Shown here: piece by piece, positions 28,922 through 30,182 of the stretch
Layout: every line of letters starts with the position of its first letter
How positions within the stretch are numbered: position 1 is the first letter of the stretch
Assembly (NCBI GenBank): GCA_018240295.1
Contig: JAFEGB010000079.1
Location: forward strand, 1-34,158
Direction: 5' to 3'
Length of the DNA: 34,158 bases
DNA from: Pseudomonadota bacterium
Lineage (GTDB): Bacteria; Pseudomonadota; Gammaproteobacteria; Competibacterales; Competibacteraceae
Program-made: the position numbers and the translations under genes
Notes under the pieces: generated by a model
Told to the model about the DNA's origin: nothing
Databases searched by the model: none
What the model saw: only the letters and a program-made list of their open reading frames with translations

Positions 28922-29281
28922 TCAGCCGGCCGCGCGGCGGCGCAGCGGCACGATCGGGTTCACCGGCTGGGCGGCGGCCAGCGAGCCGAGGCGGTCGCTG
29001 GTTTCCAGCAGCGTCGCCATCCACAGGCGCATGTCGTGGCGCACGCGGCGCTGCCAGTCCTCGTTCAGGCGCTGCACGCATTCGCTGACCGTGTCGGGGC
29101 TGCGGGCTTCGAGCAGGCGCCCGACGAAGCCGAGCCAGATCATCAGGTAGGCGCCGCTGGCCGCGATGCCGATGCCCGACAGCTCCTCGCCTGCGCGCAG
29201 CGCCGCCCGCTGCGAGCTGATGGCCAGACCGAGACTGGCCATGCCCATTCGCTCCAGATCCTCGGCGTTCAGCGCATACAT
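28922..29281 (-). CDS. Phasin-like small PHA granule protein, PhaR-controlled
   Basis: 119 residues. Not certain by sequence. It starts M-Y-A-L-N-A-E-D-L-E-R-M, is mainly helical with an amphipathic N-terminal half and a short hydrophobic patch (A-Y-L-M-I-W-L-G-F-V), and ends R-R-R-A-A-G. Size, amphipathic helices, location next to phaR and phaA, and a PhaR-type operator over its promoter all point to a granule-coating phasin. GAGG lies 9 bases before the ATG at 29281. It faces the alanyl-tRNA editing gene across a 148-base gap in which I see no clear terminator. Alternative: another small PHA-regulated protein. Confidence 0.68.
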   Translation of the reverse strand: MYALNAEDLERMGMASLGLAISSQRAALRAGEELSGIGIAASGAYLMIWLGFVGRLLEARSPDTVSECVQRLNEDWQRRVRHDMRLWMATLLETSDRLGSLAAAQPVNPIVPLRRRAAG

Positions 29282-29314
29282 GACGGCTACCTCTTGATGG
29301 TGCGTCGCAACATT

Positions 29315-29355
29315 TGTTGCAGTGCAATATAGGGTTTTCCCTGATGAGAAGTCAA
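29315..29355 (-). promoter_or_regulatory. Phasin-like gene promoter with PhaR-type operator
   Basis: On the minus strand, TTGACT (29355-29350), an 18-base spacer and TATATT (29331-29326): a strong sigma-70 promoter. Overlapping the -10 and the start point is TGTTGCAGTGCAA (29315-29327, plus strand), which fits the motif TG[N]TGC[N]3GCAA that I recall for the PhaR homologue PhbF of Herbaspirillum. Inverted repeats TTGCA-G-TGCAA and GCAACA-TT-TGTTGC overlap here. The placement predicts direct repression by PhaR. Confidence 0.75.
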
Positions 29356-29435
29356 CGGGCTCCAGATATGCAAAAGCCGCCCGAAGGCGGCCCTGACAGT
29401 CCGAAACAGACCGGAACTCCGGAATCCCTGCCTGC

Positions 29436-29990
29436 CTACTTCTTGCCGTCCGGCTTGTCGGTGCGCGCGGTTTCCGTTTCCTGTGCACGCCCCGGCTGCA
29501 GTGCCCGCGGCAGCTCGACGCCCTGCTTGTACAGGCGTTCGTTCATCTTCTGCCAGATCGACAGATTGTGCTCGGCGAGGTCCGAGATCACCTGCAGCGG
29601 GTTGGCGCCCATCAGGTTGCGCAGCTGCTCGCGCACCAGATGCTGCTGGTCGACGAAAGCCTGCAGGCTCTTTTCGAGGTAGCTGCCCATCATCCCCTGC
29701 AGCGTGTCGCCGTAGAAACGGATGATGTGTGCGAGCACCTCGGTCGTGAAGATCGGGTTTCCCTGCTCCTCCTGCTCGCTGATGATCTGCAGCAGGATGC
29801 CGCGCGTGATGTCATCGCTGGAGCGGGCATCGACGACGCGGAAGTCCGCCCGTTCCAGCACGAGCCGCTTGACGTCTTCGAGGGTGATGTAGCTGCTGAT
29901 CGCCGTGTCGTAGAGCCGGCGATTCGGATACTTCTTGATGATGCGCGCTTCGCTCATCGGTTCCGACCGGTTGGGGGACGCCAGGGCCAT
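29436..29990 (-). CDS. phaR: Polyhydroxyalkanoate synthesis repressor PhaR
   Basis: 184 residues. A regulator that binds DNA and PHA granules, releasing phasin and synthesis genes when polymer appears. The PHB/PHA accumulation N-terminal domain is unmistakable: I-I-K-K-Y-P-N-R-R-L-Y-D-T at about residues 16-28, then S-S-Y-I-T-L-E-D-V. The second domain follows with F-Y-G-D-T-L-Q-G-M-M and S-Y-L-E-K-S-L-Q-A-F. The C-terminal tail is charged and low complexity. The start at 29990 has AAGGGCGAG upstream; ATG at 29957 (M-S-E-A-R-I-I-K-K) is the alternative. It is downstream of phaA and upstream of the phasin-like gene. Confidence 0.95.
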   Translation of the reverse strand: MALASPNRSEPMSEARIIKKYPNRRLYDTAISSYITLEDVKRLVLERADFRVVDARSSDDITRGILLQIISEQEEQGNPIFTTEVLAHIIRFYGDTLQGMMGSYLEKSLQAFVDQQHLVREQLRNLMGANPLQVISDLAEHNLSIWQKMNERLYKQGVELPRALQPGRAQETETARTDKPDGKK

Positions 29991-30143
29991 CCGCTCGCCC
30001 TTGCGCCGGGTCCTGCAGGGGACCGCAGTGGGAATGAGGACCACGGTCTGACGCCGCAGTCCGGTTGGGTCCGGCATTTCCTCCCGGGCAGTCGCCTGCC
30101 GTCATGCCGCCGTGCAGTCCCGCCGTCGGGACCGCGAAACGTC

Positions 30144-30175
30144 CGGGGCGGCGTGCCTCGCGACACGCCGCCCCG
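30144..30175 (-). terminator. Hairpin after phaA
   Basis: Perfect 12-bp GC-rich arms (30144-30155 and 30164-30175) around an 8-base loop, 7 bases after the phaA stop. No U-run follows on the minus strand, so it may terminate with help from Rho or stabilise the phaA message. Confidence 0.55.
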
Positions 30176-30182
30176 ACCGGGA

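Follow-up and report, generated by a model that had tools for sequence, protein, structure and literature searches.

Tandem PhaR-type operators on the promoter of a lineage-restricted phasin-like gene in Competibacteraceae

Results

A small gene behind phaR carries its own promoter and two abutting operators

The window (the whole 34,158-nt stretch of DNA analyzed here) contains phaR and, directly behind it, a small gene whose control region holds the features below.

29436 to 29960, minus strand: phaR, 174 residues, the presumed binder (TIGR01848, 155 bits versus a cut-off of 109; PF07879 and PF05233)
29372 to 29391, minus strand: possible short intrinsic terminator GCCGCC-TTCG-GGCGGC-TTTT between phaR and the small gene (sequence; stem in RNA fold)
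29350 to 29355, minus strand: -35 hexamer TTGACT (promoter scan; TTGAC also in both orthologous promoters)
29326 to 29331, minus strand: -10 hexamer TATATT (promoter scan; identical in both orthologous promoters)
29314 to 29330, no strand assigned: operator 1, 17-bp site ATATTGCACTGCAACAA as read on the minus strand (matrix score 26.8; kept at two orthologous loci)
29297 to 29313, no strand assigned: operator 2, 17-bp site ATGTTGCGACGCACCAT as read on the minus strand (matrix score 23.1; exact TGNTGCN3GCAA match; kept at two orthologous loci)
29290 to 29294, minus strand: Shine-Dalgarno sequence AGAGG (seen in the sequence; kept in orthologues)
28922 to 29281 with the stop codon, minus strand: phasin-like gene, 119 residues (open reading frame; homologues in two genomes; coding-type codon conservation; hairpin model)

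The minus strand reads TTGACT-N18-TATATTGCACTGCAACAAATGTTGCGACGCACCATCAAGAGGTAGCCGTCATG, and the two hexamers with their 18-bp spacer form the single sigma-70-like promoter that the scan found between 28600 and 30400 (mean of 0.1 in shuffles). The initial annotation had reported this promoter to be overlapped by TTGCACTGCAA, an exact fit to TGNTGCN3GCAA, and both are present as described: the operator 1 13-mer TGTTGCAGTGCAA (plus strand, 29315 to 29327) matches TGNTGCNNNGCAA exactly. The same annotation had placed the site over the -10 and the start point. The site does overlap the end of the -10, although its 13-mer reaches only the last two bases of the hexamer, and we infer a start point at about 29319, inside operator 1. 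A second operator escaped that annotation despite being an exact match to its own pattern. This site (GTGCGTCGCAA, with the 13-mer TGGTGCGTCGCAA at 29298 to 29310) directly abuts operator 1 on the downstream side, in the leader. Both sites are palindromic, of the form TGC-R-N-Y-GCA with a conserved outer T and A, and a matrix scan found no strong PhaR-type site upstream of the -35 of the small gene. The observation of a promoter with an operator is confirmed, and is stronger than first stated.

With the possible terminator behind phaR in place, transcription of the small gene would depend on the gene's own promoter, a point to which we give little weight because the terminator contains too few T residues for the terminator scan. 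No strong PhaR-type site was found between the thiolase gene and phaR (29961 to 30182), and the window therefore gives no hint that phaR regulates itself, as has been described elsewhere.

Both operators stand far above background

Exact matches to TGNTGCN3GCAA occur twice in the 34-kb window, both on the small-gene promoter, compared to 0.31 expected; at least two matches arose in 6 of 100 shuffles, and the bare 13-mer count is only suggestive. Both operators also fit the published Ralstonia eutropha 17-mer with two mismatches each. However, allowing up to two mismatches, that 17-mer has six matches in the window where about 4.7 would be expected, and we therefore rejected it as proof of a site on its own.

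We then scored the window with a 17-bp weight matrix trained on phasin promoters from nine other Competibacteraceae genomes, excluding the window's own genome. While the two operators scored 26.8 and 23.1, 3 Mb of second-order Markov sequence produced no site of 20 or higher. Adding the phasins of the own genome gave 26.5 and 23.4, compared to 6.4 for the next-best place in the window. This matrix evidence is decisive for both sites.

The motif marks phasin promoters across the family

Phasin_2 matches were located in ten Competibacteraceae genomes (the window's own and nine others), and 35 loci were examined; one of them (L122) scores below threshold and does not look like a phasin. Of these 35 phasin hits, 32 have YTGC-N3-GCAA or its complement in the 260 bp upstream, where TGNTGCN3GCAA is about 143 times as dense as in the remainder of these loci. 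We aligned 52 sites. Positions that had played no part in site selection show a T at -7 and an A at +7 in every case, and a purine at -1 and a pyrimidine at +1 in 95%; all four positions match the PhaR consensus of R. eutropha, YTKNTGCRNYGCANMAR (PMC12849132). In the window's own genome, one or two such sites are present at each of the five Phasin_2 genes.

Operator pairs on phasin promoters (L049, L050, L104, L107, L108, L110, L111, L117, L120 and L121; L048 and L096 to L103) adopt two fixed spacings, 26 to 29 bp (mostly exactly 27) and 59 to 62 bp. With 16 to 17 bp, the small gene adds a third layout that falls short of 27 bp by one helical turn. Few other pairs at 17-bp spacing came up in the family (L158 to L160, inspected at sequence level), and a search of the genomes concerned returned no homologue of the small gene.

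The control region is conserved in three species and the protein much less so

The small protein has homologues in two further genomes, at loci that correspond to Plasticicumulans acidivorans DSM 23606 and to P. lactativorans DSM 25287; the window's genome belongs to the same genus group as P. acidivorans. All three species place the small gene directly behind phaR and keep the -10 TATATT, both dyads (16 to 17 bp apart) and the Shine-Dalgarno sequence. Across them PhaR is 86 to 89% identical and the small protein 35 to 42%, so the initial annotation's description of the gene as poorly conserved holds for the protein but not for its control region. In the alignment of the small gene the second codon position is the most conserved and the third the least, as is typical for coding DNA.

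Known members of this protein family come from three genomes. Homologues turned up in only 3 of 39 family genomes, and 369 genomes drawn from the class yielded none beyond the two Plasticicumulans species, nor did a seed-based scan, limited in reach, that took one genome from each species. In P. acidivorans and P. lactativorans the small gene adjoins a PhaC-like gene, which in the window's genome lies on another contig. In many other family members the stretch behind phaR leads to a PhaC-like gene in convergent orientation, which alignment verified in three of them, and the small gene therefore looks like a lineage-specific insertion.

The predicted shape of the encoded protein is compatible with a phasin

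Family searches with the small protein gave no match over cut-off, and Pfam returned only an unrelated sub-threshold match. Against Phasin_2 (PF09361, gathering cut-off 24.9 bits) the window protein has no match and the P. acidivorans homologue reaches 15.9 bits (E 0.015); because this is below the Pfam cut-off, we call the protein phasin-like and do not file it under Phasin_2. When the scores of all three homologues against phasin profiles were added up, the total exceeded all 2000 column permutations, and those for the window protein alone were not significant (P 0.17 to 0.19); the underlying alignments are weak and mostly colinear. With hhalign, the small-protein alignment gave a probability of 24 against all phasins and fell within the permuted range against a tested subset. 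Searches of PHROGs and PDB sequences with the protein or the alignment returned nothing useful, and a plasmid search returned no match.

AlphaFold2, run on the three sequences, predicted a helical hairpin with helices at 6-58 and 62-103 (mean pLDDT 79.6, pTM 0.57), and the model of the P. acidivorans homologue is the same hairpin. When the top Foldseek structures were compared, Aeromonas PhaP (5ip0_A) came out on top with one model (Z 10.7, rmsd 6.7 Å over 104 residues) and in second place with the other (Z 9.0), tying with unrelated hairpins; since unrelated helical hairpins reach similar Z, the models are only compatible with a phasin fold. A. hydrophila PhaP (PDB 5ip0) likewise consists of two long helices (17-60 and 66-109) joined by a short linker (PMC5180188), but is only 12% identical to the model. 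Like phasins as a class, the window protein is small and mostly helical with amphipathic helices: two helices are predicted, with 18-residue hydrophobic moments of up to 0.58. It also has a hydrophobic mid-helix segment. The gene product is probably a granule protein, a reading that the predicted hairpin and the weak phasin-profile signal of the homologues strengthen.

PhaR-type sites elsewhere in the genome

Our view of the regulon in the window's own genome rests on pattern searches. Two of the highest site scores among the own-genome loci examined belong to a site of 28.4 near a sodium/calcium exchanger gene and a deoxyribosyltransferase-family gene (L037:1500, contig C233) and one of 27.4 upstream of a gene for a family 2 glycosyltransferase (L007:1498, C7). 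A strong site scoring 25.2 precedes a PhoU-domain gene by about 50 bp (L020:1500-2255, C49), a possible link of PHA storage to phosphate control. A strong palindromic site of 24.6 and, about 45 bp further along, another CTGCACTGCAG both lie upstream of a GNAT acetyltransferase gene (L003:1500-2225, C2). Near the starts of genes for a patatin-like lipase (L039:402-1520, C252) and a tannase/feruloyl esterase family protein (L022:1-1472, C50) are sites of 27.3 and 19.1, respectively, and either product could be a PHA-degrading or granule enzyme.

Discussion

PhaR represses phasin genes, binds nascent PHA and quits the promoter once granules form (PMC12849132, PMC12542648). The initial annotation had read the site as a PhaR-type operator on a small phasin-like gene, and this reading is supported by sequence comparison: nearly every phasin promoter in the family has the motif, phaR is adjacent, the arrangement is conserved in three species, and the sites follow the published PhaR consensus even at positions outside site selection. 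We propose, with a probability of about 0.72, that PhaR represses this lineage-restricted phasin-like gene through two operators until granules titrate PhaR away, and that the product is an accessory phasin. In cells without PHA, PhaR bound to operator 1 (at the -10 end and start) and to operator 2 would block RNA polymerase at the separate promoter behind phaR. As PHA granules form, PhaR would shift onto them and free the operators, and the 119-residue helical-hairpin protein would then be made and coat the granule. PhaR would thus be the binder, repression the effect and the granule the site of the protein, which is probably a coat protein made only during plastic storage.

The layout resembles known PhaR targets in its parts and differs in its arrangement. 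At phaP1 of R. eutropha (Cupriavidus necator), PhaR binds degenerate palindromes with the same TGC-R-N-Y-GCA centre, including a site around the transcription start (PMC12849132). However, the other sites there lie upstream of the -35 and inside the gene, whereas here two predicted 17-bp sites abut, one at the -10 and start and the other directly downstream. Palindromes are likewise paired at the phasin promoters of Sinorhizobium meliloti (phaP1 and phaP2) and Rhodobacter sphaeroides (phaP), with the forms CTGCNNNGCAG and NYGCRNYGCRN (PMC12542648), but the S. meliloti pairs flank the -35 while the pair here runs downstream from the -10. The Phasin_2 proteins of Competibacteraceae are of similar length (103 to 138 residues) and carry the operator motif on their promoters; unlike the small gene, they use the two wider operator spacings and score as family members.

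The most probable alternative, though an unlikely one, is that the operators are real PhaR sites and the protein is another PhaR-controlled helper and not a structural phasin. It could, for example, work with the PhaC-like synthase whose gene is adjacent in the relatives, or attach granules to the membrane or nucleoid. The sub-cut-off Pfam score, the hydrophobic mid-helix segment, the PhaC-like neighbour in both Plasticicumulans species and the PhaR-type sites near non-phasin genes of the own genome are all consistent with such a role. However, the predicted hairpin and the weak phasin-profile signal in the homologues argue for a phasin, and phasin genes are the commonest carriers of the motif seen here.

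It is far less probable that a regulator other than PhaR uses these sites, or that PhaR acts on them as an activator. PhaR is named as the binder from sequence, and R. eutropha PhaR does activate phaP3, from upstream sites (PMC12849132). Against another regulator stand the adjacent phaR and the match to the published consensus outside the selected positions; against activation stands the position of the sites, which fits steric repression because one operator lies on the -10 and start, the other just downstream, and none upstream of the -35. That the sites are chance matches and the reading frame functionless is scarcely credible: the bare 13-mer is not rare enough by itself and homologues are few, but the conservation data already contradict this idea, since promoter, both operators, Shine-Dalgarno sequence and reading frame are kept in three species with coding-type codon conservation. 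The Markov null also contained no comparable site.

The regulatory mechanism proposed for the accessory phasin is already known; what is new is the gene, which encodes a lineage-restricted candidate granule protein. Conservation is far higher in the operator than in the protein under its control, so the gene was identified by its regulation and not by homology. These data point to a candidate granule protein overlooked by sequence-family searches, in a group that contains P. acidivorans, a bioplastic producer at record level; an enrichment dominated by that species reached 89% PHA (PMC7878175). We suggest tentatively, as a possibility we consider doubtful, that the Plasticicumulans lineage alone acquired a new phasin-like family, inserted between phaR and the gene of the PhaC-like synthase with its own tight tandem PhaR operator, and that this family adds to the very high PHA content of the lineage. 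More broadly, a well-defined 17-bp PhaR-type motif for Competibacteraceae makes the PhaR regulon of these storage bacteria predictable.
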